Origin: a virus
DNA length: 63,714 bases
Direction: 5' to 3' (one strand)
Virus record (IMG/VR): IMGVR_UViG_3300025096_000015
Coordinates: 1 to 63,714 of that record
The notes beneath the pieces are model-generated. The model saw only the letters and a program-made list of their open reading frames with translations, did no database searches and had not been told where the DNA came from. The position numbers were made by a program, and so were the translations under genes. Positions within the stretch are counted from its first letter, which is position 1, and every line of letters starts with the position of its first letter. Shown here piece by piece: positions 12,885 through 62,429 of this stretch.

Positions 12885-14471
12885 ATGTCTTATCAGCTAA
12901 CAAAAAAAGAAATCACAAAAGAGGTCCTCAGAAGTGGAAAGGATCCAGTTTATTTTATAAACAACTATTGTAAGATTTCACACCCAATGAAAGGTTTGAT
13001 TCCTTTCAAATTGTATGATTATCAAGAAGATCTTATTAATGATTTTAATGATTATCGTTTTAATGTTATTCTCAAAGCACGACAGCTTGGTATCTCAACA
13101 ATTACAGCAGCCTATGTTGTTTGGTTAATGATGTTCCATCGAGATAAAAACATTCTTGTTATGGCTACAAAATTTAGCACAGCAGGCAATCTTGTAAAAA
13201 AAGTTAAATCTATTATTAAACGTCTTCCAAACTGGATGCAAATAACTAAAGTTATTGTTGATAACAGAACAAGTTTTGAATTAAGTAACGGATCGCAGAT
13301 TAAAGCATCTTCAACTTCTGGTGATGCCGGTCGTTCAGAAGCGCTATCTCTATTGGTTATAGATGAGGCCGCTCACGTTGAAGGTCTTGAAGACTTGTGG
13401 ACAGGTCTTTATCCTACAATCTCTACTGGTGGACGCTGTATTTCATTAAGTACTCCAAATGGCGTCGGAGGATGGTTCTATAAAACATATATTGATGCCG
13501 AGGCTAGAAGAAATGATTTCCATCCTATAAGATTAATGTGGGATGTCCACCCAGATCGTGATCAAAATTGGTTTGATAAAGAAACTAAGAATATGTCTAT
13601 CAGACAGATCGCACAAGAGCTGGAATGCAACTTTAACACTTCAGGTGAGACTGTCTTACATCCGGATGATATAAAATTTATTGAACAAAATATAAAAGAG
13701 CCAAAATACAGAACTGGCTTTGATAGAAATTTCTGGATTTGGGAAGAATATAAACCAGAACACACATACATGATCGCTGCCGATGTTGCTCGTGGAGATG
13801 GACAAGACTTTTCAGTTTTTCATGTGTTTAAATTAGAAACAGCTGAAGTTGTTGCAGAGTATCAGGGGAAAGTAGCTCCGGATATATTTGCAAATATACT
13901 TTCTGATGCAGGAAAAGAATATGGTTCTTGTTTGTTGGTAGTCGAAAATAATTCAGTTGGTTTTGCTGTTCTAGAAAAGCTTAAAGATACAGACTATCCA
14001 AATATTTATTATTCAATTAAATCTACTCATGAGTATATAGACCAGTTGACTGCAGAATACAAATCTAATAGTGTCGCAGGGTTTACCACTTCTTTAAAAA
14101 CAAGACCAATCATTATTTCAAAAATGGAAGAATTTGTAAGGAACAAGCTAATTACAACGTACTCGTCTAGACTTTATAATGAGTTTAAGACTTTTGTTTG
14201 GAACAATGGGAAAGCACAAGCTATGAGAACTGGAAATGACGATTTAATTATGTCTTTTGCAATGGGATGCTGGATTAAAGATACTGTATTTGTGGAGAAC
14301 CAAAAGAAAATAGATTATCAAAAAGCATGTGTAAGTTCAATGTTTAAATCTGACAACGTTATAAACACAACCATTCCAGGAATGCAAGGATATAAACCAA
14401 TAAAGCGATCTAAAGAAATGCAAGAAAGTATAGATCAGCAAAAAGAATTTGTATGGCTTCTTAAAGGATAA
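12885..14471 (+). CDS. gp17: Terminase large subunit (gp17-like packaging ATPase/nuclease)
   Basis: The 528-residue motor pumps DNA into the prohead and cuts the concatemer. The ATPase domain has a deviant Walker A (KARQLGIST, 64-72), Walker B with catalytic Glu (LLVIDEAAH, 156-164) and coupling motif STPNG (189-193). The RNase H-like nuclease has AADVARGDG (Asp300), LVVENNSVG (Glu354) and GNDDLIMSFAMG (Asp452/453). It is somewhat shorter than T4 gp17 (610). AAGGA lies 4 bases before the ATG; an out-of-frame ATG at 12881 was ignored. Portal follows 9 bases later. Confidence 0.93.
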   Translation: MSYQLTKKEITKEVLRSGKDPVYFINNYCKISHPMKGLIPFKLYDYQEDLINDFNDYRFNVILKARQLGISTITAAYVVWLMMFHRDKNILVMATKFSTAGNLVKKVKSIIKRLPNWMQITKVIVDNRTSFELSNGSQIKASSTSGDAGRSEALSLLVIDEAAHVEGLEDLWTGLYPTISTGGRCISLSTPNGVGGWFYKTYIDAEARRNDFHPIRLMWDVHPDRDQNWFDKETKNMSIRQIAQELECNFNTSGETVLHPDDIKFIEQNIKEPKYRTGFDRNFWIWEEYKPEHTYMIAADVARGDGQDFSVFHVFKLETAEVVAEYQGKVAPDIFANILSDAGKEYGSCLLVVENNSVGFAVLEKLKDTDYPNIYYSIKSTHEYIDQLTAEYKSNSVAGFTTSLKTRPIIISKMEEFVRNKLITTYSSRLYNEFKTFVWNNGKAQAMRTGNDDLIMSFAMGCWIKDTVFVENQKKIDYQKACVSSMFKSDNVINTTIPGMQGYKPIKRSKEMQESIDQQKEFVWLLKG

Positions 14472-14480
14472 GGAAAAAGT

Positions 14481-16466
14481 ATGGCTAAAAAAACAACAAA
14501 CCCTCGTAATCCAGAATCAGGTTTATTTAAAAGACTGACGAGATTATTATCAGGTCCAATTATTAATTATCGTAGAGAATCTCCGAAAAAGGATAAGAGA
14601 AGAAATCTAGATAAATACAAATTTCAATCAGCCAGCGGCAGACAATTTAAAAAGACTTCGTATGATCCCTTTGAAAATCTTACCGCCAATATTATGGCTA
14701 ATCAGAATCGTGTTGAAAGATATGCAGACTTCGAACAGATGGAATACGAACCGATTATTGCATCTGCAATGGACGTGTATGCTGATGAGATGACAACTTC
14801 AAGTGACCTCCAATCCCTTTTGACGATAAAGTGTCCAAACGAAGAAATAAAAAATATTCTTGATAGTCTTTATCGAAAAACTCTCAATATTGAATTCAAT
14901 CTTTTTGGATGGGCTAGAACCATGTGTAAGTTTGGAGACTATCTTCTGTACCTAGATATAGATGAAGAACTCGGAGTTAGAAATGCAATTGGAATTCCTA
15001 ATTCAGAAGTAGAAAGACTAGAAGGTTTAGATCCTGAGAATCCAAATTACGTCCAATACCAGTGGAATTCTGCGGGACTAACTTTGGAAAACTGGCAAGT
15101 TGCTCATTTTCGTATTCTCGGGAATGATAAGTATGCTCCGTATGGAACAAGCGTTTTGGAACCAGCGAGAAGAATTTGGCGTCAACTGATCCTTCTGGAA
15201 GATGCTATGATGGCATACAGAATTGTTAGAGCGCCAGAAAGAAGAGCTTTTTATATTGATGTTGGAAGTATACCGGCACAAGATGTTGAACAATTTATGC
15301 AAAAAGCAATGACTCAGATGAAACGTAACCAGGTTGTTGATTCAGGAACTGGTCGTGTTGACTTACGTTATAACCCGCTAAGTATAGAAGAAGACTATTT
15401 TATCCCTGTTCGAGGAGGTGAGACAGGTACAAGGATCGAAACAGTTGCAGGCGGATCTTATACTGGAGATATTGATGACGTCAAATATTTAAAAGATAAA
15501 TTGTTTGCGGCACTTAAAATTCCGCAAGCATATCTTTTTAGAGGCGAAGGAGCAGAAGAAGACAAAACAACTCTTGCTCAAAAAGATATTCGCTTCGCAA
15601 GAACAATACAGAGGCTTCAAAGATCGGTTGTTTCAGAACTTGAGAAAATTGGCATTGTTCATTTGTTTACTTTAGGCTTTAGAAATGAGGATTTGATTTC
15701 TTTCAAACTTAGTTTAAATAATCCATCTAAAATTGCTGAACTTCAAGAGCTTGAAAACTGGAAAACAAAATTTGATACAGCTAATTCTGCTACAGAAGGA
15801 TTTTTTAGTAAGCGATGGATTGCTAAGAATGTATTTAATCTTTCTGATGAGGAATTCCAGAGAAATCAGCGTGAACTATTTTATGATCGCAAATTTGAAT
15901 CTGCTATTGAGGGTGTCGGAGAAGAGGCATCCGGAGAAGAAGCTGGCTTAGGAGGAGAACTCGGAGGAGAACTCGGAGGAGAATTAGGCGGCGAAGAGCT
16001 TGGAGGTGATGAACTCGGAGGAGAATTAGGCGGCGAAGAGCTTGGAGGTGAAGAGGAACTTGGCGGTACTGAGGATGCTGGCGCAGAAGCAGAGACAGCT
16101 CTTTTAACTCCTCCAGCTAAACGAGATGAAGATTGGTATAAAACTAAGAGAAGAAATGATGGAAAGACTACAACTTCTAAATCAAAAGGAAAGTGGTACA
16201 CACCCGTTACTTATGATGGTAGAAAAAACACAGCTAGAAAGAGTAATATGAGATCTCAATTTGCTTATGAAACTGGCAAGAATACAAAGAGAAACGTATT
16301 TAAAGGAATGTCAGATATATTAGCATTAGGAAGAGGGTTAACTGAGGAAAAAGATACTACTTATAATGAGGAAGTGAAACTATTTGAAGTTAATCACCAA
16401 GTTAGAAGTTTGATTGCAGAATTGGAGTTAAAGGATGACGAAACTAAAACACAACAAGAAGCGTAA
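14481..16466 (+). CDS. gp20: Portal protein (gp20-like)
   Basis: This 661-residue protein forms the dodecameric vertex through which DNA enters and leaves. The core (about 55-470) has T4 portal-like segments such as YEPIIASAMDVYADE, APYGTSVLEPARRIWRQL, YRIVRAPERRAFYIDVG and KYLKDKLFAALKIPQAYL. Residues about 489-530 are a Gly-Gly-Glu-Leu repeat encoded by a near-perfect tandem duplication, followed by a basic tail. The low-complexity part is probably a flexible extension inside or above the portal. It overlaps the next gene by 32 bases. Confidence 0.9.
   Translation: MAKKTTNPRNPESGLFKRLTRLLSGPIINYRRESPKKDKRRNLDKYKFQSASGRQFKKTSYDPFENLTANIMANQNRVERYADFEQMEYEPIIASAMDVYADEMTTSSDLQSLLTIKCPNEEIKNILDSLYRKTLNIEFNLFGWARTMCKFGDYLLYLDIDEELGVRNAIGIPNSEVERLEGLDPENPNYVQYQWNSAGLTLENWQVAHFRILGNDKYAPYGTSVLEPARRIWRQLILLEDAMMAYRIVRAPERRAFYIDVGSIPAQDVEQFMQKAMTQMKRNQVVDSGTGRVDLRYNPLSIEEDYFIPVRGGETGTRIETVAGGSYTGDIDDVKYLKDKLFAALKIPQAYLFRGEGAEEDKTTLAQKDIRFARTIQRLQRSVVSELEKIGIVHLFTLGFRNEDLISFKLSLNNPSKIAELQELENWKTKFDTANSATEGFFSKRWIAKNVFNLSDEEFQRNQRELFYDRKFESAIEGVGEEASGEEAGLGGELGGELGGELGGEELGGDELGGELGGEELGGEEELGGTEDAGAEAETALLTPPAKRDEDWYKTKRRNDGKTTTSKSKGKWYTPVTYDGRKNTARKSNMRSQFAYETGKNTKRNVFKGMSDILALGRGLTEEKDTTYNEEVKLFEVNHQVRSLIAELELKDDETKTQQEA
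15969..16052 (+). repeat. Tandem 42-bp duplication in the portal gene
   Basis: Two 42-base copies, 15969-16010 and 16011-16052, differ only in the last base. They encode ELGGELGGEELGGD and ELGGELGGEELGGE. Partial shorter units of the same kind precede them from about 15947. In-frame repeat expansion or contraction is expected here. Confidence 0.9.
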
Positions 16467-18150: not shown

Positions 18151-18762
18151 ATGTCAAAATTATTGCTAAGAGAGTACTATGAACTTTGTGAAGGTGGCGT
18201 TTGCCAAGACTTCTTAACTGAAGCTGAAAAGAAAATGGTTAAAGAAGGTCATGTGTTCCTTAGTGGTATTATGCAAAGAGCTGACACAAGAAATGGCAAT
18301 GGTCGTATTTATCCCGGCGCCATTCTTGAAAGAGAGATGAACAATTACTCAAAACTTGTAAAAGAAAGGCGAGCATTGGGCGAATTAGATCATCCAGATG
18401 ATTCAGTCATTAATTTAAAGAACGCTTCTCATCTTGTAACTGATATTTGGTGGGACCAAGGCGCCGTTATGGGGAAAATTCAAGTTCTTAATACTCCTTC
18501 TGGCCAAGTATTAAAAGAACTTGTAAACGCTGGAGTAAAACTTGGCATTTCTTCGAGAGGGATGGGCTCAGTTCACGAATCTGAAGGAAATACAATGGTT
18601 GAAGATGACTTTCAATTGATTTGCTTTGATATGGTTTCAGAACCTTCAACAACCGGTGCTTATATGACACCAAGACAGCTTCAAGAAAATATTGCAAAAG
18701 ATGTTTTCACAAAAGCTGATAGGATTAATAGAGTATTAAACAATATACTGAGGAAAACTTAG
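18151..18762 (+). CDS. gp21: Prohead protease (gp21-like, peptidase U9/S77 type)
   Basis: This 203-residue serine protease matures the prohead by cutting scaffold, core and capsid proteins. Visible catalytic-region motifs are GELDHPDD (His) and LGISSRGMGS (nucleophile Ser), with RNGNGRIYP in the N-terminal half. The ATG at 18151 has AAAGGA at 8 bases, better than the GTG at 18145. The gene is followed 2 bases later by a very large internal-protein candidate, which would be among its substrates. Confidence 0.88.
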   Translation: MSKLLLREYYELCEGGVCQDFLTEAEKKMVKEGHVFLSGIMQRADTRNGNGRIYPGAILEREMNNYSKLVKERRALGELDHPDDSVINLKNASHLVTDIWWDQGAVMGKIQVLNTPSGQVLKELVNAGVKLGISSRGMGSVHESEGNTMVEDDFQLICFDMVSEPSTTGAYMTPRQLQENIAKDVFTKADRINRVLNNILRKT

Positions 18763-18764
18763 AA

Positions 18765-21700
18765 ATGAAGAACGATAAGCCTGGAAGAGACCTGAAAGAA
18801 TCCATCAAAGAAGAAATCGAATCTTTTTTTGAGGAAAAAAGGGTTTTAGAAGAGGAAGCTAAAGAGCTTCAAGAAATGCTTGACGAATATGATGCCTTTA
18901 TTGTAGAAGTAGGACGAATGCAGAAGAATACGCTTGAGGAAGCTGAACTTCAAGAAATTTCTCCATCATTTTACGGAAAAAAGAAATGGGCTCAACTAGC
19001 TGATGAGCCTGACGAACCAGAAGCTGCCGGCAAAGCTGAGCCCGGCGCTATTACAAAAGCAGTAGGATGGGCAGGAGAAAAAATGGCGCAAAGAGCGGCT
19101 AAAAAGGCAGGAAAAGAAGCTGAAAAGCAAAGCGCCGCCCGCGAGAAGGCGAAAGCAAAGGCAGGCCCAGATTGTGGAGGCGCCCAACGTGAAGAAGAAT
19201 TAAAATTAGCCGCAGAAAAAGCTCGTAGCCTCTGGACTAAGTTTAAACATTTCATGTCTCGGAATATGGTGACCGGCGGCTCCTTGGAAAAAGGTGGTAA
19301 AATTATTGGTAGAGAGAAGATAGCATCTCAGGCTGGTGAACAGATGAGAAAAATTATGAAAAATACCACCAATGTAACATTTCAAGAGTTTGTCAAGCAA
19401 ATAGATAATTGTTACCCAGATTTTCCAAACATGCCAGACAATGACAACTTTATGGAAGCCATAGAAACTATAAGAATGTCTTATGACTCAGTTAAAGCTG
19501 CAGCCGCAAAATATAAACCGGGTGTACCACCAGATAAACAGCCGGAAGGATATTTGGATCCTCATAGCGCACAAATGGTTGTTCAATCTATGCGCAAATA
19601 TGTGGATCATGTACTTAATTATAAATTAGCAGACACATACAAGCACCTTAAAGAAAATATGGAATATTGCTCTGAAGAAGAAATATCGGAAGCTCAAGAG
19701 TTAATTGATAAAATCCTTCTTGAGGTGAGCGAGAAAGACGTTGCAGCAGCATATGGTACGGAAGGAGAAGAATGGGACACGGAAGACCCAGACGCAGAAA
19801 CAGAAGGTGAGGAAGAAGGCCCTCTTTCTGGTGAATATATGGCAAAAGGCGGTGTACAGAAAGGCCTAGAAAGTCATGTTTTGCCAACTGTTTTAGGTAT
19901 GTTAGGCGGCTCTTTCACTATGGGGCATTTTATTGCAGCTGCAGCTTTAAAGGATGCGGCGAAGTGGTTCCCATTAGATGCTGCAGATAGAGCTACGTTT
20001 GAAAATGATATTGAAATTGGTTTTGAAGAAGGAATAGGTCCAGAGCTTGCAGCATGGGAAGCCGATCCTGAAGGTTACATGCGCGCAATGGCTAAACGCG
20101 CCGGCACCGAGGATTGGCGAGATTTGGCCGGGAATATCGATAAAATTGTAAACGAAGACCCGCGCGTTAATTCTCCAGCTGATATTTTTAGAATGTGGGC
20201 GTCATCCGATCCTAGGCATAGCGAAAAAGATATTATTAACGCCATAATAGCACAAGAGACAAATTATGAATGGTCCAAACAGGGTGGCCATCCAAGTATT
20301 TGGAATCGAAGCGGAGCAATAACTGATAAAGACTATTTGAAACTGGCCGATACAGTAGCAGAAAAGCACGGCCTTGAGCCTGGAGCGGGAAGCGATCTTC
20401 TCGGTGCTGTTGTGGGTACCGGTAAGCCTTCAGGCTTCCCTGGCGGCATCAAAATGGAGTTTACGAACCCGAATGGAGATCTTCCCCCGGGCAGCGGCGG
20501 AGGCGCCACACGCGGCCCGTATGGGATGTATCCTTCACCTAACCAACCAAATTCTGCTGGTTTAAACCCGGGTTCCTCCGAATCAGTTAACCAGCTTTGG
20601 AAAGATTTCGACGCAGCTGCAGGAGCAAATGCTGATAAATTTGCCAATATGAGTCCTGAAGCTTATGAAGCTTATGCATCTAAAAAACAATCTGTAAATG
20701 CAATTCAAGGATTATTGAGTTTGCCCAATGGAACTTTGATTGCTCTAGCAACAAAAACAATAGTACCGATAATAGTTTTGGTAGCTACTAGAAGGTTTGT
20801 TGTCCAGGCCGGCGGAAAAGCGGTTGCCATGGCAGGCCTAGGAGTTAACCCACTGCTTATGTATGCCGGCATCGCAGGTATCGCTTCAGGCCTCGGCGTC
20901 GCAGCCGCTCGAGCAAAGGGTCGAAAATCATCTAGAGCGAAACAACTCATGGATTTCCAAGCTTACCTAAAAGATATTCCTGTTCCGGAGGGTCTCGAGG
21001 TAGAACTTTGTCCAGATGGAATAACAGTGAAAGATGTGGAAAAGTGGCCAGAGACAAACGGTTGCCCACCAGAAGACATTAAAGATCCAGGTACTATAAT
21101 GCAACCCACAATAATAAGTCTTGATAATGATAGGGTGAAATATTGGCATAGTACTGCGAAACAATCAGGTGCGATTGCGAAGCACGCGATGAAATTCAAA
21201 AGAATACAAGATCAGGTAATTATCGGGAGGACCTCTAAAGAAACATCGGACGCGCTCGACCGCGCTCTTGGGGGCTCTAAGGGATCTCCCGGTATCGAAG
21301 AACAGGAGTTTCGAGGACCGGTCCAAACGACCGCGCTTCCAAAAGCAGCCAAAGGAGGCAAAGGATCCGGGCGGAAAAACACCGGCCTTCCGGGCGGAAA
21401 GCACAAAAGTTACGACGCCATCGTAAAAGCCGCTCAATATGGCGAACGCCGCGTCCTACCATTTTTTGTAATCGATGCCAGTATTTATGGCGATGTAGCG
21501 GAAGTTTTTGCCACTAATGCGCCCAAGCTAAAGAAGGTTGGCGAAAATGAAAGTCTTGTGAAAAAAATTGCCACAGTGTTGTTGGGGACTATGGTCAAAA
21601 ACAAGAAAAAAGTTACAGCCGAAGAAACTTTGAAAGTCATTGCAGCAGTATATAAAGGTGAACTTGGCGACGCGGCCACATCTCCTGCCGCTCTAGAACT

Positions 21701-21932
21701 TTTTAAAGAAATAGCTATTAAGTTTCAAGCTATCGGTGTAGTTGAAAGTGATGAATTTCCCGAGACGAAGCCACCACCAGTTCCAGCAGGAGCTGGCGGC
21801 GAGGCTCCGCTTTCTCCTGAAAAGAAGCCAGGTGCAACTCCTGCAGGGGATCCAAAACAATTAGAGCTTCCACTTCAAGAGTCCAAAACATTTGATCGCT
21901 GGAAAAAGATGGCTGGAATTTTAAAAGGTTAA
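18765..21932 (+). CDS. Large prohead core / internal virion protein
   Basis: The 1055-residue protein is unrecognised. Its N-terminus is strongly charged and helical (LKESIKEEIESFFEEKR). Ala/Lys/Glu-rich low-complexity follows, with a hydrophobic block near residues 655-715 (LIALATKTIVPIIVLVATRR, VNPLLMYAGIAGIASGLGVA). The C-terminus reads FDRWKKMAGILKG, almost the same as the end of the scaffold. Lying between protease and core genes, it is probably packed in the prohead and perhaps ejected with DNA; the hydrophobic helices could then act at the host membrane. The 21200-21450 part is distinctly GC-rich. Confidence 0.5.
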   Translation: MKNDKPGRDLKESIKEEIESFFEEKRVLEEEAKELQEMLDEYDAFIVEVGRMQKNTLEEAELQEISPSFYGKKKWAQLADEPDEPEAAGKAEPGAITKAVGWAGEKMAQRAAKKAGKEAEKQSAAREKAKAKAGPDCGGAQREEELKLAAEKARSLWTKFKHFMSRNMVTGGSLEKGGKIIGREKIASQAGEQMRKIMKNTTNVTFQEFVKQIDNCYPDFPNMPDNDNFMEAIETIRMSYDSVKAAAAKYKPGVPPDKQPEGYLDPHSAQMVVQSMRKYVDHVLNYKLADTYKHLKENMEYCSEEEISEAQELIDKILLEVSEKDVAAAYGTEGEEWDTEDPDAETEGEEEGPLSGEYMAKGGVQKGLESHVLPTVLGMLGGSFTMGHFIAAAALKDAAKWFPLDAADRATFENDIEIGFEEGIGPELAAWEADPEGYMRAMAKRAGTEDWRDLAGNIDKIVNEDPRVNSPADIFRMWASSDPRHSEKDIINAIIAQETNYEWSKQGGHPSIWNRSGAITDKDYLKLADTVAEKHGLEPGAGSDLLGAVVGTGKPSGFPGGIKMEFTNPNGDLPPGSGGGATRGPYGMYPSPNQPNSAGLNPGSSESVNQLWKDFDAAAGANADKFANMSPEAYEAYASKKQSVNAIQGLLSLPNGTLIALATKTIVPIIVLVATRRFVVQAGGKAVAMAGLGVNPLLMYAGIAGIASGLGVAAARAKGRKSSRAKQLMDFQAYLKDIPVPEGLEVELCPDGITVKDVEKWPETNGCPPEDIKDPGTIMQPTIISLDNDRVKYWHSTAKQSGAIAKHAMKFKRIQDQVIIGRTSKETSDALDRALGGSKGSPGIEEQEFRGPVQTTALPKAAKGGKGSGRKNTGLPGGKHKSYDAIVKAAQYGERRVLPFFVIDASIYGDVAEVFATNAPKLKKVGENESLVKKIATVLLGTMVKNKKKVTAEETLKVIAAVYKGELGDAATSPAALELFKEIAIKFQAIGVVESDEFPETKPPPVPAGAGGEAPLSPEKKPGATPAGDPKQLELPLQESKTFDRWKKMAGILKG

Positions 21933-21935
21933 GTA

Positions 21936-22370
21936 ATGAAAAAAACAGATCTTAAAAAAGTGCTAAAACCACTTATTAAAGAATGCGTAAAAGAAACTCT
22001 TTTCGAAGAAGGCATTTTATCTAGTGTCATCGCAGAAGTTGTAAAGGGACTTGGAACAACACAACAATTAGTTGTTGAGCAGGAACAAAATAACGAAGAT
22101 GAGATTAAAAAAATGCAGTTGCAAGAGAGACAAAAGAGATCTCAAAAGATAAATGAGACAAGAAAAAAGATGTTAGATGCCATTGGCAAAAGCTCTTATA
22201 ATGGAGTCGATTTGTTCGAAGGTACAGCTCCAATAGCAAGTGCCGGCAACCCAGGCGAGTCGACTTCGCCACAAGGTGCTCTTACTGGCGTCGACCCGGG
22301 AGATCCTGGAGTTGACATATCAGGTCTTATGAAAAATGCCGGTGTATGGAAAACACTAGCGAAAGGATAA
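21936..22370 (+). CDS. Prohead core-like small protein
   Basis: This 144-residue protein opens MKKTDLKKVLKPLIKECVKE, a helix of the LKxxIKEEL type, and has a Gln/Glu/Lys-rich coiled middle (KKMQLQERQKRSQKINETRK). It ends in a flexible Gly/Pro region and VWKTLAKG, a variant of the RWKxLAG ending on the scaffold and the large internal protein. It starts 3 bases after that large gene. It fills the place of the small core proteins of T4 (gp67/gp68), but homology cannot be claimed. Confidence 0.5.
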   Translation: MKKTDLKKVLKPLIKECVKETLFEEGILSSVIAEVVKGLGTTQQLVVEQEQNNEDEIKKMQLQERQKRSQKINETRKKMLDAIGKSSYNGVDLFEGTAPIASAGNPGESTSPQGALTGVDPGDPGVDISGLMKNAGVWKTLAKG

Positions 22371-22375
22371 GAAAA

Positions 22376-22588
22376 ATGAAATCAATCAATGTAGAAACAG
22401 TTGTTAGAAAAGGCGAAAATATCGAAAGAGCGATAAAAAGATTTACAAAAAAGGTGAAGAAAGAAACTATTATAGAAGATACTAGAGAAAGACAATATTA
22501 TGAAAAGCCATCTGAAATTAAAAGACGGCTCAAAAAGAGAAGAAAAGCTACTCTAGACAAGTTGAAAGCGAAACAAGAAACTAATTAG
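22376..22588 (+). CDS. rpsU: Ribosomal protein bS21 homologue
   Basis: This 70-residue basic protein aligns by eye with bacterial bS21. GENIERAIKRFTKKVKKETI matches the first helix region, DTRERQYYEKPSEIKRR matches the diagnostic RRREFYEKP motif, and a Lys/Arg-rich tail follows. Length is typical for the family. ATG 22376 has AAAGGA at 8 bases; a longer frame from 22346 has no binding site. bS21 is the loosely held small-subunit protein near the anti-Shine-Dalgarno site, and phage copies are known from marine phages. It could replace the host protein and bias initiation to phage mRNAs. Its location inside the head operon implies late expression. Confidence 0.85.
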   Translation: MKSINVETVVRKGENIERAIKRFTKKVKKETIIEDTRERQYYEKPSEIKRRLKKRRKATLDKLKAKQETN

Positions 22589-22615: not shown

Positions 22616-23077
22616 ATGCCACATAATTATCAATCAGGGTTAGGAAATTCAGCTGCCTATATGGTTTCTGGTCAACCATTCATAACCGGGTCATCGGATG
22701 TTGGTAAGCATCAAGAAGTTAAAGTTGAGTTTCCAAGAGTGACAAACAACTTTACAATTGTCGCTTCCGGTTCAGGTGCCACCCCAAAAATAAGAGTACA
22801 TTTTAATTCTACTAGTTCTGCTGCAACAATTGGAAACCATGGGTTTGTTCACGGACCAGGTTCAGCAAATGTTATTAAGGCTCATCATTATATTCAATTA
22901 GATGGCGATGAAGAATCGATGAACTTTCCCGTTAAATGCAAAGAAGTTTACATTACTGCTTTAAACGATGGTTCTGGCTTCCAGTTGTTTGCATCGCTAA
23001 CCGGCATTGATGCTGGTTCAATGTATGATCTTACAGGATCTGGTCTAACAACTGATCTTGATAATGGAACAACTTAA
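22616..23077 (+). CDS. Virion protein, possible capsid decoration
   Basis: This 153-residue beta-rich protein begins MPHNYQSGLGNSAAYMVSG, a start that recurs in large marine phages on structural proteins. Strands such as TNNFTIVASGSGATPKIRVH and GFQLFASLTGIDAGSMYDLT suggest a jelly-roll or Ig-like fold. CTAGGAGA precedes the ATG. It sits between bS21 and a fibre gene and ahead of the scaffold and capsid, which favours a head decoration or head-fibre attachment protein. Confidence 0.5.
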   Translation: MPHNYQSGLGNSAAYMVSGQPFITGSSDVGKHQEVKVEFPRVTNNFTIVASGSGATPKIRVHFNSTSSAATIGNHGFVHGPGSANVIKAHHYIQLDGDEESMNFPVKCKEVYITALNDGSGFQLFASLTGIDAGSMYDLTGSGLTTDLDNGTT

Positions 23078-25774: not shown

Positions 25775-27592
25775 ATGTCTGTTTTAGAAACCCTTACTGA
25801 GGGTATTGTTAATAGGGACCTCCAGAAAGAAGGTGCTACTCTGCTTGAGAAGTGGGAAAGAACCGGACTTCTAGAAGGTCTTACTGAGGACTCCACGCGT
25901 AATGGCATGGCTCGTCTTCTTGAAAACCAGGCCAAGGAGCTTCTTCGCGAAGCTTCTACTATGGGCGCTGGTGGTGACGTGGAAGGCTTTGCAGCCGTCG
26001 CGTTTCCGATTGTCCGCCGAGTTTTTGGTGGGCTCATTGCTAATGATCTTGTATCTGTGCAACCAATGAGTCTCCCGTCTGGACTCATTTTCTTTCTAGA
26101 CTTTCAGTTTAATAAAAATCGTCTAGATCTCGTAGCTAACGAGTCACTTTTTGGCGGCGGTAAAGTTGGTCAGCAAATCACTGGGGGTATGAACCTTGAT
26201 GATGAGAACGCTGAAGATGGCTTTTATTCCTTGAATAATGGTTATTCTTCCCCAACTGGTAGTGCGTCTAGTGTAGTAGTGACGGTTGTTGCTTCTGGTA
26301 CCGCTGGAATTGGCGAGGCAACGTCAAATTCGGGTCTAGCTTCCACCCAGGAAGACATTAGTGCCACTTATACTGCTCTTGCTGATAAGCTGGTACAGTT
26401 TGATCCAGATCTTTCTGGCTCTTCATATGTAGCGGCAACAGTTCCGCTCTCGTCCTTGGTAGATAGCACCAATAGTACCAGAATCAATAAGCACAATCTT
26501 GTTGCGCTTAGTGCTTCTGATTATGAGCCTGGAGCTACCAAATCTGGCTATCTGGTACGTCGTTTGACGCGTCTTGATCCTACTCAAACAGCAGGAGAAG
26601 AGACGAAGGTGCTTATTATCTTTGCCAATAGTGGTTCTACCGTAACTGAGGCAGCTGGAGCGATTCCAGTGGCCTCCGCCGGTTCTATCGCTAACGTGTC
26701 AAGCTCAGTTGGCTATACACACAACTTCTCTTTCCCGATTGTTGACAACTTCGAGGGAACTGTTGCTGCTTCCGCTGGAAACACAATTGGTTCTATCGTT
26801 GGTCAAGATCAATGGGGACTTGAAGCTGATGCTGAAATCCCTGAGATTGACATCAAGGTCGATAGCGTGTCCGTGACGGCGATGACCAAGAAACTGAAGG
26901 CCAAATGGTCTCCGGAACTCGGTCAGGACCTTAATGCGTATCACAACCTCGATGCAGAGGTTGAGCTTACTGGTATCCTTTCAGAGCAGATTGCTCTTGA
27001 AATTGATCGCGAGATTCTTGAGGATCTTGTGAAGGGTGCTACTGCTGGTACGTACTATTGGTCACGCCATGCTGGTAAGTTTGTTGCCCGCTTGACCGGT
27101 AAAGAAGTAGGCGCTGCTACTGCAGCACCTGATTTCACCGGTACTGTGTCTGAATGGTATGAGACTCTTGTCGAGACCATTAACGATGTGTCTGCTCAGA
27201 TCCATCGTAAGACGCTTCGCGGTGGGGCTAACTTTATCGTAGTGAGTCCCGAGGTTGCTAATATTCTTGAATTCACAGCTGGCTTCCGCGCCGATGTAAC
27301 AGGTGATGCTGACAGAGGTACGGTTGGTACTGTCAAGACTGGTAGCCTTAGCAAGAAGTGGGACGTATACGTTGATCCTTACTTTACTAGGAATCTTGTT
27401 CTTGTTGGACGCAAGGGCGGATCATTCCTTGAAAGTGGGTATGTGTATGCTCCATATGTACCACTTCAAGTCACTCCTACAATCTTCGGTGTAGAAGACT
27501 TCGTGCCCCGCAAGGGTGTCATGACGCGTTACGCCAAGAAGATGGTTCGTGCAGATATGTACGGTCTTGTTGTTGTGACTGATCTAGTCTAA
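25775..27592 (+). CDS. gp23: Major capsid protein (gp23-like)
   Basis: This 605-residue HK97-fold capsid protein builds the icosahedral head. The N-terminus includes LLENQAKELLREAST and VEGFAAVAFPIVRRVFGGLI; later segments such as WSPELGQDLNAYHNLDAEVE, LSEQIALEIDREILEDL and YVDPYFTRNLVLVGRKGG are T4 gp23-like. An LxE site (LRE-A, residues 57-60) is a likely prohead-protease cut, releasing about 59 residues. Bases are visibly more GC-rich and codons more C-ended (ggt, ctt, cgc) than neighbours, as expected for the most abundant protein. AAAGGAGG precedes the ATG; a strong terminator follows. Confidence 0.93.
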   Translation: MSVLETLTEGIVNRDLQKEGATLLEKWERTGLLEGLTEDSTRNGMARLLENQAKELLREASTMGAGGDVEGFAAVAFPIVRRVFGGLIANDLVSVQPMSLPSGLIFFLDFQFNKNRLDLVANESLFGGGKVGQQITGGMNLDDENAEDGFYSLNNGYSSPTGSASSVVVTVVASGTAGIGEATSNSGLASTQEDISATYTALADKLVQFDPDLSGSSYVAATVPLSSLVDSTNSTRINKHNLVALSASDYEPGATKSGYLVRRLTRLDPTQTAGEETKVLIIFANSGSTVTEAAGAIPVASAGSIANVSSSVGYTHNFSFPIVDNFEGTVAASAGNTIGSIVGQDQWGLEADAEIPEIDIKVDSVSVTAMTKKLKAKWSPELGQDLNAYHNLDAEVELTGILSEQIALEIDREILEDLVKGATAGTYYWSRHAGKFVARLTGKEVGAATAAPDFTGTVSEWYETLVETINDVSAQIHRKTLRGGANFIVVSPEVANILEFTAGFRADVTGDADRGTVGTVKTGSLSKKWDVYVDPYFTRNLVLVGRKGGSFLESGYVYAPYVPLQVTPTIFGVEDFVPRKGVMTRYAKKMVRADMYGLVVVTDLV

Positions 27593-27595
27593 AAT

Positions 27596-27653
27596 AACTT
27601 TTTTCGAAAAGTTAGACTAATCTAAGCCCCGGGGTTCGCCCCGGGGCTTTTTT
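27596..27653 (+). terminator. Twin hairpins with rho-independent terminator after capsid gene
   Basis: The first hairpin, 27596-27613, has a perfect 7-bp stem (AACTTTT/AAAAGTT) around TTCG. The second, 27624-27649, has a perfect 11-bp stem (AAGCCCCGGGG/CCCCGGGGCTT) around a TTCG tetraloop, and its run of T reaches 27653. Both loops are the very stable UUCG type. The second is a classic intrinsic terminator isolating the head operon from the neck/tail operon; the first may protect the mRNA 3' end. Confidence 0.95.
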
Positions 27654-43582: not shown

Positions 43583-44782
43583 ATGTTATTTCAGACATTG
43601 GACAGTAAACATGAATGCGTAGGAGTATATTATGACGGAGAACTTTATTTTGATCATGAGCTTCCTGACAGAGTTAGTGAAACATGGTCTTACGCATCTT
43701 TTCTCAGGGATAGAGAAGTTAGATACGGCCATTTGCAATGTGGTGGTAAGACTCTTGACGATGTTTGTCCCGACTCTTTAAAAGAAGACTGGGATAGTAT
43801 TAATAATAAATTAAAAGCATTTCTGAAATCTTTTCACTTTTCAAAAGTGTCCCTTGATGACAATTGTTTTTATGACTTGGTGCCGAAGAAGTTCTTACTT
43901 GAATTCTGTGAAATCAAAAACCGAATTACAAAGCACGTTTTCGAAAATTTTTTGCCGCCCAAAAATTTGAGATTTTTAACTTTATTATCAAGAGTAGTCG
44001 AGGATATAAATCAGCAAAAATTAAATATTGATATTGACGGATTTAAACCGCATCTCGCTGAATATAAAGCGAGACAATGGAGAAAGAAAATTCAAGGTAT
44101 TTCTCCTTATATAAAATATGATATTTTTGGTACCAAAACAGGAAGACTGACAACAAAGAAATATAGTTTTCCAATTCTCACCTTCCCGAAGAAATATCGG
44201 TCCATTCTCAAACCAAATAATGATATATTTGTTGAACTGGATTACAATGGAGCGGAGTTGAGAACTCTGATGGCGTTGTCAGACAAAAACCAGCCGACAA
44301 TGGATATTCATGAATGGAACAGAAGACATTTATCTAACAACAAGGTTATGTCTAGACAAGAAGTTAAAAATTCCATCTTTGCGTGGTTGTATAACTCGAA
44401 AAAACATCCAAATGAGACCGCACTAAGAAAGATGTTTGATAAGGATAAAGTCTTGAGTGAGTATTGGGATGGCGAGACTGTAAAAACCTGTTTCAATAGA
44501 GAGATACCAGCTGATAAGCATCATGCTCTGAACTATATTATCCAGAGCACATGTGCTGATCTTATTTTGCAAAAAATGATTAAAATTTATGATATACTAG
44601 ATGGTAGGAAATCAAATGTTGCTTTTTGCGTACATGATAGTATAGTTATTGATTTGCATTCAGAGGACAAACATTTAATGAAAGATATAATAAGTGAATT
44701 TTCGAATACGAGATTTGGAAAGTTTAAAACCAGTGTAAAGACTGGAAAAGACTTCGGGAACCTCGAGGAGCTTGTGATATAA
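43583..44782 (+). CDS. Short family A (PolI-like) DNA polymerase
   Basis: This 399-residue protein holds a palm-fingers polymerase core but no exonuclease domain. FGTKTGRLTTK and FPILTFPKKYRSIL precede motif A FVELDYNGAELRTL (about 216-229). Motif B is RQEVKNSIFAWLY with the R-x3-K-x3-F-x3-Y spacing of PolI. Motif C is FCVHDSIVID (350-353 VHDS), where the usual VHDE has Ser for Glu. The retained Asp pair suggests activity, but the E-to-S change is unusual. With DnaE and a flap nuclease in the same genome, gap filling or primer replacement is a likely job. It is TAATG-coupled to the tubulin-like gene. Confidence 0.8.
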   Translation: MLFQTLDSKHECVGVYYDGELYFDHELPDRVSETWSYASFLRDREVRYGHLQCGGKTLDDVCPDSLKEDWDSINNKLKAFLKSFHFSKVSLDDNCFYDLVPKKFLLEFCEIKNRITKHVFENFLPPKNLRFLTLLSRVVEDINQQKLNIDIDGFKPHLAEYKARQWRKKIQGISPYIKYDIFGTKTGRLTTKKYSFPILTFPKKYRSILKPNNDIFVELDYNGAELRTLMALSDKNQPTMDIHEWNRRHLSNNKVMSRQEVKNSIFAWLYNSKKHPNETALRKMFDKDKVLSEYWDGETVKTCFNREIPADKHHALNYIIQSTCADLILQKMIKIYDILDGRKSNVAFCVHDSIVIDLHSEDKHLMKDIISEFSNTRFGKFKTSVKTGKDFGNLEELVI

Positions 44783-50370: not shown

Positions 50371-50444
50371 ACGCCCGTAGTTTAGTAGGTTAGAGCGCCA
50401 CTCTTATAAGGTGGAAGTCCCTGGTTCAAGTCCAGGCGGGCGTA
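50371..50444 (+). tRNA. tRNA-Ile (anticodon UAU)
   Basis: The cloverleaf is complete: acceptor ACGCCCG/CGGGCGT with discriminator A, D-arm GTTT/GAGC, anticodon stem CCACT/GGTGG with loop CTTATAA (anticodon TAT), variable AAGTC and T-arm CCTGG/CCAGG with loop TTCAAGT. CCA is not encoded. It reads AUA directly, a codon common in this AT-rich genome and rare in many hosts. It lies in the gap before the helicase. Confidence 0.92.
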
Positions 50445-50459
50445 CTAAAAAAGGTTATT

Positions 50460-59021: not shown

Positions 59022-62000
59022 ATGGCTAAAATTCCATTTGTTGGATTACACGCCCACAGCGGCTTAAGTTTGAATGATGGTCTGGGATACCCGCAAGATC
59101 ACATGGATTTCGCTTATGAGAACGACGGAAACGCCCTTGCATTGACCGATCATGGTCACATGAACGGGTTGCCTTATCAAGTGCTTCATGCGCGCAAAAT
59201 GCAGGCTAGTGGGAAGAATTTCAAGCCAATCTTCGGCGTCGAAGCTTACTTCAATCCATCTTTAGGACAATGGAGAGAAGAATACGAAAAAGCAAAACAA
59301 GAAAAGAAAAAAGGAATCAAGAACGAAATTGAACTATCTATTGAAGATGAGAGGGCTTCAAAACAGAAAGTTGTAGATATACTCAAAAAGAGAAATCACC
59401 TCATTCTGATCGCGCAGAATCAAGCAGGTTTGAATAATATATTTAAACTTGTGTCGGAGAGCTATAAAGATGAAAACTTTTATCGTTACCCTAGAATTGA
59501 TTATAAGCTTCTTGATCTATATGGTGACGGAATTATTGCCTCTAGTGCTTGTCTTGGCGGTGTTTATGCTGGTGATTATTGGGATTTTCGCGACCTTGGT
59601 AGTGACGCTATTTTAAAAGCTATGCGCCAAACTACAGAGCGCATGAAAAACATATTTGGAGACAGATGGTATGGAGAACTCCAATGGAATAACATTCCAG
59701 AGCAGCATGAACTTAATCAATACATCATCCAGATCTGTCGTGAGTATGATGTAAAATTAATCTCTACAGCTGATAGTCACTATCCTAATCCTGACGCTTG
59801 GAAGGACAGGGAACTATATAAAAGGATCGGATGGTTGGGTAAAGGTGGCTTGCCAGACTATATGTCTTCTGAACTTCCTTCTGGCGTTGAGGAGGTTGGA
59901 TACGAGTTATATCCAAAGAATGGCGATCAGATGTGGGAATCATATCATAACTATTCTAAGTTGGTTGGTTTTGATTACGATGATGATCTTGTGTTGGACT
60001 CAATCAAAAGGACAGAATATATTGCTCACGACTTGATAGAAGATTTCATGCCCGATAATGAAGTTAGACTTCCAAGTTTCGTTGTTCCTGCTGGTAAAAC
60101 AGATATTCAGGCTTTGACACAAGATTGTCTCGAGGGTCTAAAAGAAAAAGATCTTAACAATAAAGATGAATATGTTGACAGGCTTAAAGAAGAACTCTTC
60201 GTTATTCGTGACCGAGGGTTTGCCAAGTACTTCTTAACAATGAAAGCTATTGCAGATAAAGCATCCTCAGTTCAGTTAACAGGGCCAGGCAGAGGCTCGG
60301 CAGCTGGCTCTCTTGTTGCTTACGTTTTAGATATCACACAGGTTGATCCAATTAGACACGGACTTCTGTTTTCAAGGTTTTTGCGTAAAGACGCAACGGA
60401 CTATCCTGATATTGATTATGACGTGAGTGACCCGATGGAAGTGAAGGAGATGTTGATCGAGGAATGGGGCGCTGACACAGTTGCGCCTATTTCAAATTAT
60501 AATACTCTTCAGCTGCGCTCTCTAATCAAAGACGTATCAAAGTTTTATGATGTTCCTTTTGTTGAGGTCAATAACGTAACTGGCAAAATGATCTTCGAAG
60601 CAACTCCGATTGCCAAGAAAGTTCATGGGATCAAATCAGGAGTGTACGCCCCAACTTTTGAAGAAGTAATGGAATACTCAGAGACTTTGAAGAAGTTTCT
60701 TAATAAGTATCCCCATATCAAGACTCACATTGAGGCTCTTCTAGGGCAGGTTAGGAGCGTCTCCAGGCATGCAGGCGGTGTTGTTGTAGGCGAGAACCTA
60801 GACAAGTGGATGCCGCTCGTTAATAGCGGTGGTGTGAGGCAGACTCCTTGGTCAGAGGGTCAGAACGTAAGACATCTTGAACCTCTCGGCTTCATTAAGT
60901 TTGATATTCTTGGACTGGCTTCTTTAAGAATGATCGAAGGATCAATCCGACATGTTCTTAAAAGGCATCACGGCATCGAGGAGCCAACATTCGAGGATGT
61001 GAAGAAATTCTATAATGAGAAGCTGCACCCTGATGTTATAAATTTTAATGACCAGAATGTCTATAAGAATGTTTTCCAGAAAGGTAAGTGGACAGGTATA
61101 TTCCAATTCACAGAACAGGGAGCACAGGAATTTTGTAAGAAGGCAAAGCCAAAAAACTTGATTGATATTTCTGCTATCACTTCAATCTATCGCCCAGGTC
61201 CACTCGGTGCAGATGTAGATAAGTCTTACGTAGATGCAAAGCGAGATCCTGGAAGCGTGAATTATGTTCACAAGCTTGTAAAGGATGTGACAAAAGAAAC
61301 TTATGGATTTCTTATCTTTCAGGAGCAAATCGCTTTGCTGGCTCACAAACTTGGCAAAAACATTTCCCTTGATGAAGGTAACGCTCTGCGAAAGTATTTG
61401 ACAAAGAAAGGAACTGGAGATGAATCAAAGAAGAAAGAGAAGATTTATAATAAATTCGTTGAAGGCTGTATAGAAAAGAAGTTATCAATGTCGCAGGCTG
61501 ATCAACTTTGGCAGACATTTGAATACTTTTCTGGCTATGGCTTCAACAAATCCCACGCAGTAAGTTATAGTATTCTTAGCTTTCAGTGCGCATGGTTACT
61601 GAATTATTATCCTGTAGAGTGGACTGCCGCTTTCCTCGACAAAGAACCCGAAAGCAGAAAAGAAAAAGCAATTAACATTGCTAAGTCAATGGGGTTTAAG
61701 ATTCAACCACTTAATATAAATTCTTCAGGGACAGTTTGGGAAATTACTGAAGATGGTAAGACTCTCATTCAGCCACTGACTTCCGTTAAAGGCTTAGGGG
61801 ATAAAGCTATTGAACAGATCACGCAGCATCGCCCGTTTAATACTATTGAAGAATTATTGTTTAATGAAGATATCATTTATAGTAAGTTAAACAAGAAAGC
61901 TTTGGACGTTCTTGTACGGAGTGGAGCGGTTGAAGGTCTGATAGATGACAGGTTTTCTGGAGTGAAACACTTTTGGTCCGCTGCTGTTGTTGATCGTCCA

Positions 62001-62429
62001 AAAAAGGAAAAACAATTACACGACAATATTGAACTTTACAGACCAGAAGGAGACTTCACAGTTGAAGAAAAGATTGCTAACAAAGCGAATTTGACTGGTG
62101 TTTTCCCAATTGATCTTGTACTAACTGAGCGTGTGAAAAGCAAACTCGAAGAATATTTTGTTCCACCGATTGCTGAATATGACCCAGAGCTTCAGGTTGT
62201 CTGGTTTATCCCGAGAGAAATCATAAGAAGAAAAACAAAAAACGGCAAAGAATATTGGATTGTCAATGTAATCGATTCAACAAGTAACCAAACTACAATT
62301 AGATGTTGGGGAGTTCGAGAAAAAGACATAATCCATGTTAATCGACCTTACATGTGTAAAATTGATTACAACGAACAATGGGGATTTTCTTCTAGATCTG
62401 TAAGGCATAATTGGAGGCTATTAGGATGA
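59022..62429 (+). CDS. dnaE: DNA polymerase III alpha subunit (DnaE-type, family C)
   Basis: This 1135-residue replicative polymerase has a PHP domain at the N-terminus (VGLHAHSGLSLNDGLGYP, ALALTDHGHMNG, FKPIFGVEAYF), then the polymerase core with GPGRGSAAGSLVAYVLDIT and FRKDATDYPDIDYDVSDPME-like catalytic acids (PDIDYD at about 463-468). It continues with RHAGGVVVGENLD, SIYRPGPLGAD, IFQEQIALLAHKLG and GYGFNKSHAVSYS. A helix-hairpin-helix region (GLGDKAIEQITQHRPF) and an OB-like end follow. T4 relatives normally have family B (gp43) instead. Proofreading is not obvious unless PHP provides it. Confidence 0.93.
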   Translation: MAKIPFVGLHAHSGLSLNDGLGYPQDHMDFAYENDGNALALTDHGHMNGLPYQVLHARKMQASGKNFKPIFGVEAYFNPSLGQWREEYEKAKQEKKKGIKNEIELSIEDERASKQKVVDILKKRNHLILIAQNQAGLNNIFKLVSESYKDENFYRYPRIDYKLLDLYGDGIIASSACLGGVYAGDYWDFRDLGSDAILKAMRQTTERMKNIFGDRWYGELQWNNIPEQHELNQYIIQICREYDVKLISTADSHYPNPDAWKDRELYKRIGWLGKGGLPDYMSSELPSGVEEVGYELYPKNGDQMWESYHNYSKLVGFDYDDDLVLDSIKRTEYIAHDLIEDFMPDNEVRLPSFVVPAGKTDIQALTQDCLEGLKEKDLNNKDEYVDRLKEELFVIRDRGFAKYFLTMKAIADKASSVQLTGPGRGSAAGSLVAYVLDITQVDPIRHGLLFSRFLRKDATDYPDIDYDVSDPMEVKEMLIEEWGADTVAPISNYNTLQLRSLIKDVSKFYDVPFVEVNNVTGKMIFEATPIAKKVHGIKSGVYAPTFEEVMEYSETLKKFLNKYPHIKTHIEALLGQVRSVSRHAGGVVVGENLDKWMPLVNSGGVRQTPWSEGQNVRHLEPLGFIKFDILGLASLRMIEGSIRHVLKRHHGIEEPTFEDVKKFYNEKLHPDVINFNDQNVYKNVFQKGKWTGIFQFTEQGAQEFCKKAKPKNLIDISAITSIYRPGPLGADVDKSYVDAKRDPGSVNYVHKLVKDVTKETYGFLIFQEQIALLAHKLGKNISLDEGNALRKYLTKKGTGDESKKKEKIYNKFVEGCIEKKLSMSQADQLWQTFEYFSGYGFNKSHAVSYSILSFQCAWLLNYYPVEWTAAFLDKEPESRKEKAINIAKSMGFKIQPLNINSSGTVWEITEDGKTLIQPLTSVKGLGDKAIEQITQHRPFNTIEELLFNEDIIYSKLNKKALDVLVRSGAVEGLIDDRFSGVKHFWSAAVVDRPKKEKQLHDNIELYRPEGDFTVEEKIANKANLTGVFPIDLVLTERVKSKLEEYFVPPIAEYDPELQVVWFIPREIIRRKTKNGKEYWIVNVIDSTSNQTTIRCWGVREKDIIHVNRPYMCKIDYNEQWGFSSRSVRHNWRLLG

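Follow-up and report, generated by a model that had tools for sequence, protein, structure and literature searches.

A ribosomal protein bS21 gene held in the head block of a marine T4-like phage lineage

Why should a phage keep a gene for a ribosomal protein among the genes that build its head, and what could the product do to the ribosomes of its host? The locus that raises this question lies in an IMG/VR record, linear and 63,714 bp long (the window, meaning the whole stretch of DNA analysed here), which is from a marine T4-like phage. The general idea that a phage bS21 replaces that of the host late in infection is already published (2019-2022). A 2019 study described viral bS21 and showed that the protein of Pelagibacter phage HTVC008M becomes a stable part of E. 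coli 70S ribosomes (PMC6375957), and bS21 was reported in huge phages in 2020 (PMC7162821). In 2022, work that surveyed 900 published bS21 phages described Bacteroidetes lake phages in which bS21 lies in a head-gene neighbourhood and is co-transcribed with head genes late, leading to a hijacking hypothesis (PMC9723584). In pelagimyophages S21 has been called a core protein, but one outside any gene cluster (PMC7029224).

As judged by its sequence and its predicted two-helix fold, the window gene encodes a genuine bS21. The open reading frame runs from an ATG at 22376 to a stop codon at 22586-22588, and the product, which carries the RQYYEKPSEIKRR motif, scored above the curated cut-offs of two family models: 59.6 bits (E=2.5e-16, cut-off 27) for PF01165 Ribosomal_S21, the profile against which the original prediction had proposed to check it, and 55.1 bits (E=4.7e-15, cut-off 28.95) for TIGR00030 S21p. 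It also matched phrog_21469 'ribosomal protein S21' (E=5.7e-12) and solved bS21 chains (best E=1.4e-9). Reading frame, motif and profile scores thus agree with the 70-residue bS21 that had been predicted here. The start codon is supported by the relatives L005 and L006, which lack any upstream start close to the position matching 22376, and by the lack of a Shine-Dalgarno (SD) sequence at the alternative in-frame ATG at 22346; the SD of the chosen start sits inside the final codons of the upstream 144-aa gene (Table 1). An AlphaFold2 model made from ten phage relatives has two helices (16-42 and 45-69, mean pLDDT 82.9) with the central EKPS (YEKPS) turn between them, as in bS21 architecture; its pTM is only 0.43, and the relative placing of the helices is uncertain.

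Placement of the gene in a head operon, also part of the original prediction, is borne out by its neighbours, as bS21 is found between the prohead protease and the major capsid protein, all on the + strand. Between about 12.3 and 42 kb, the + strand holds terminase, portal, prohead protease, bS21, tail-fibre-like, major capsid, head-tail adaptor and tail sheath genes, and the block from the terminase large subunit (TerL) to the capsid gene is on this single strand throughout. The hairpin directly 3' of the capsid gene is clearly the strongest terminator-like site in a scan of 12-30 kb and is the probable end of the transcription unit that holds bS21, so that bS21 is plausibly on the capsid-gene transcript. 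Neither the 144-aa gene (g144) directly 5' of bS21 nor the 153-aa gene 3' of it matched any family in Pfam and PHROG profile searches. Between the protease and g144 there is a 1055-aa protein of no assigned family (18765-21932); close relatives either lack it or show just a short match. Members of the lineage also differ in the distance from protease to bS21, which ranges between about 360 and 3100 bases, so that this part of the head block is a hot spot for insertions.

Table 1. Features of the head block and of the bS21 locus, with the evidence for each.
Feature	Position	Strand	Evidence
Terminase large subunit (TerL)	12885..14471	+	PF03237, phrog_2
T4-like portal protein gp20	14481..16466	+	PF07230 E=8e-76
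Prohead core serine protease (Peptidase_S77)	18151..18762	+	PF03420 E=1e-31
144-aa conserved gene (g144), directly 5' of bS21 in the lineage	21936..22370	+	tblastn synteny in ~40 contigs; protease-based sample
Shine-Dalgarno AAGGA, 8 nt 5' of the bS21 ATG	22363..22367	+	sequence, SD scan, duplex energy -4.7 kcal/mol
bS21 (rpsU-like) CDS, 70 aa	22376..22588	+	PF01165, TIGR00030, phrog_21469, PDB bS21 chains
153-aa gene 3' of bS21, fast evolving	22616..23077	+	median dN/dS 0.36
Major capsid protein (gp23-like)	25775..27592	+	phrog_138 E=1.5e-70
Terminator-like hairpin 3' of the capsid gene; stem of 11 pairs (9 GC), T tail	27624..27649	+	pattern scan, consensus match only

Replication genes follow from 42 kb onward, for example those for DNA polymerase, RecA, 5'-3' exonuclease, DnaB helicase and ribonucleotide reductase. 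There are two separate DNA polymerase matches, one at 43583-44782 (399 aa, matching family A over its C-terminal part only) and one at 59022-62429 (1135 aa, a phage DNA polymerase PHROG). A tRNA-Ile with anticodon TAT is encoded at 50371-50445; this anticodon is unusual, since AUA is normally read in bacteria by a CAT tRNA that has been modified. AUA makes up 27% of the Ile codons of the phage.

A scan of viral contigs with a bS21 query returned 80 loci, and in about 40 marine contigs among these the head block of the window is collinear, with bS21 straight after g144. Relatives were re-fetched by protease rather than by bS21 as a guard against circularity, the sample being the best 80 loci by protease similarity of a larger number. 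Within these nearest 80, a bS21 HMM match was present in 50 of the 54 loci with at least 2.5 kb 3' of the protease (48 strong matches and two at E of about 0.002-0.003), and bS21 was present in all 17 protease-fetched loci that extend to the capsid gene. As for the four loci that gave no HMM match, L264 has a displaced, diverged bS21-like ORF, the L213 contig stops just 3' of the 144-aa gene, L266 has about 630 bases remaining after that gene and no bS21, and L253 is a rearranged locus. The L264 ORF (6685-6948) and its counterpart in L260 (6096-6359) encode diverged 87-aa bS21-like proteins in which the first helix is kept and the YEKPS motif is lost, possibly a bS21 derivative with altered function.

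The protein has also evolved in step with its neighbours. Distances between bS21 proteins correlated with those between TerL proteins (r=0.83, 18 phages) and portal proteins (r=0.81, 24 phages), values that resemble those of neighbouring core genes and that were reached in 0 of 2000 permutations. Among the nearest phages, the median pairwise dN/dS of bS21 was 0.12, compared to 0.06-0.09 for TerL and portal and to the much higher value of the next gene (Table 1). Given this purifying selection, co-inheritance and near-universal retention, bS21 has been long held and selected rather than recently acquired, and is a fixed part of this lineage's head block, passed on by vertical descent. Most members of the window group share a lineage-specific N-terminal helix (RFTKKVKKE). 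In a bS21 tree built on few columns and with weak deep support, to which an E. coli row was added as an extra leaf only, the window protein falls outside the sampled cellular bS21 clades and nests in none of them.

The original prediction also held that most late messages of this phage have strong SD sites, and that bS21 could rebuild host ribosomes for those messages. Strong sites are indeed common, with 65% of predicted gene starts pairing with the anti-SD at -4 kcal/mol or below versus 22% of in-gene controls. The proposed comparison of ribosome binding site strength between gene classes, made with hand-picked start codons and with classes assigned in this analysis, gave no difference: mean SD strength was -6.29 kcal/mol for structural genes (n=25) and -5.81 for replication genes (n=25; Mann-Whitney p=0.87). 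A late-gene SD bias was thus not found, and SD strength gives no sign that late genes are preferred over early ones. Equal strength across the classes implies that the SDs mark an SD-using phage rather than a late-gene programme, and strong SDs throughout the phage are what is expected with an SD-using host.

In Flavobacterium johnsoniae, Tyr54 of bS21 stacks on the 3' tail of 16S rRNA and aids anti-SD sequestration (PMC9723584, PMC9976891), and loss of bS21 or a change to its C-terminus alters mRNA selection, Y54A being one of the mutants tested (PMC9976891). When aligned to the F. johnsoniae chain, the window bS21 and its closest relatives have Ala in the Tyr54 column, and a window bS21 without this anti-SD-sequestering aromatic fits the strong SD usage of the phage. 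Across 64 phage rows an aromatic residue at position 54 was found in 0 of 43 SD-rich and 20 of 21 SD-poor phages, where the labels reflect mean SD strength at the locus and some SD-rich rows (e.g. L056, L065) are only mildly above control. The sole SD-poor exception, LR756508, has Met at this position; the locus (LR756508.1 138000-178000, L170) is from an uncultured phage of 484 kb, which has bS21, a head block related to that of the window and strongly SD-depleted starts. The tree places nearly all of the contrast on one branch, giving one independent pair, so we do not count the association as statistically independent evidence. With about one evolutionary change, and a set gathered by two kinds of query, the pattern is consistent but does not prove a coupling. 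One reading would nevertheless make phage bS21 a lineage-fixed, late 'initiation-mode' part, whose C-terminus facing the 16S tail matches the start-site grammar of the phage (anti-SD-sequestering if SD-less, anti-SD-freeing if SD-rich), so that rebuilt late ribosomes would read phage starts by the matching mode; we consider this unlikely. Among cellular bS21s, those of Opitutales and relatives (Verrucomicrobiota genomes L085, L087, L091, L104 and L113) have a C-terminus that resembles the Bacteroidia one (KVAAF or similar) and contains an aromatic residue, and these loci show no obvious SD before rpsU, which suggests that anti-SD sequestration may reach beyond Bacteroidota.

Comparison with named phages sets the window phage apart from the published Bacteroidetes bS21 phages. 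The Bacteroidetes phages of Chen et al. 2022 (PMC9723584) likewise carry bS21 among their genes for terminase, portal, protease and capsid, together with the late-expression hypothesis. However, their bS21 is on the strand opposite the head genes, keeps the aromatic residue 54 and groups with Bacteroidota bS21, and their genes are SD-less. Six of our loci (L191-L195 and L198) look like members of this group, and the two such putative members L191 and L198 are SD-poor. The window phage differs in all four respects and, with its same-strand, non-aromatic bS21 and SD-rich genes, is on a different branch. Closer in organization is the isolated Microcystis phage Mel-JY01 (PP395634), in which the gene is already annotated 'RpsU ribosomal protein S21'. 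Like the window, it has TerL, portal, small genes, protease, a hypothetical gene, bS21, others and capsid on the same strand, SD-rich genes and no aromatic at bS21 position 54, although its TerL is only 44% identical, its bS21 is too diverged for a BLAST match and its host is a cyanobacterium. HTVC008M (PMC6375957) shares the bS21 family, SD-richness and a non-aromatic residue 54 but belongs to a different phage lineage, with bS21 outside the head block, beside CobS and Hsp20. Flavobacterium phage immuto (MW353176), which terminase (44%) and capsid comparisons place with the nearest named relatives, has the same head gene order yet no bS21 anywhere in its genome and no SD sites.

No close TerL was found in about 1500 genomes (395 Bacteroidota, 387 Verrucomicrobiota, 245 Neomarinimicrobiota, 294 Planctomycetota and 197 from the class to which a Lentisphaera genome belongs). 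These searches returned distant terminases only, at 24-30% identity for the loci compared (the Planctomycetota loci L280-L282 fall outside the comparison). One genome scan with bS21 returned cellular proteins of the family, 34-57% identical, from Lentisphaerota, Verrucomicrobiota, Neomarinimicrobiota and others, and several bS21 queries of viral contigs returned few loci. IMG record 2684622992, which may be a single-cell genome, is the source of the relative L006. We considered a Bacteroidia host whose SD-blind ribosomes are switched to SD use by a bS21 lacking Tyr54, and set it aside as nothing places the host in Bacteroidia; an SD-using host fits better, since SDs are found phage-wide, replication genes included.

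We favor, as a fairly likely explanation, the possibility that phage bS21 takes the bS21 site of the host 30S subunit and either tunes initiation towards phage messages or sustains it when host bS21 is limiting. To judge from gene position, bS21 would be made late alongside the head proteins; if it behaves as HTVC008M bS21 does in E. coli, it would then occupy the site adjoining the 16S 3' tail, whereupon initiation might shift in favour of phage messages or continue when host bS21 is short. Rebuilding of host ribosomes by bS21 is plausible in view of the HTVC008M result and of the late co-expression of bS21 with head genes in Bacteroidetes phages (PMC9723584), and the window protein probably enters host ribosomes late in infection. 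A rather less probable scenario is that bS21 only tops up general translation, host bS21 being limiting or lost from ribosomes, with no preference for phage mRNA. Early and late genes are not separated by SD strength or class, and the residue-54 class is as expected for the phage's own SD mode, with no obvious selector trait, all of which would suit such a role; the lineage-specific N-terminal helix and the position of the protein outside the sampled cellular clades, the latter on weak tree support, hint instead at a changed function.

The linkage of bS21 to protease/g144 and capsid genes throughout the lineage raises a further scenario, namely that this small, basic, two-helix protein acts away from the ribosome, in the capsid or in head assembly, perhaps being injected for the next infection. 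Packaging of bS21 has been suggested for the lake phages (PMC9723584), and the L260 and L264 versions have diverged with loss of YEKPS. We consider this improbable, as most members retain the ribosome-binding family signature, HTVC008M keeps its bS21 away from head genes, and the homologous head block of immuto does without any bS21. Least probable by far is that the gene is a non-functional passenger recently captured from a host: all that speaks for it is that phages are known to take up host genes, and it is contradicted by the purifying selection on the gene, by its inheritance together with TerL and by its near-universal retention. The nearest cellular bS21 is only about 55% identical.

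Phage bS21 is the commonest viral ribosomal protein. In the large marine lineage described here, it belongs to the core genes of the head block, near-universal and not an occasional auxiliary gene, and it is without the anti-SD-sequestering residue. This SD-rich lineage and the SD-less lineage together provide a clean pair for asking whether phage bS21 sets the mode of initiation.
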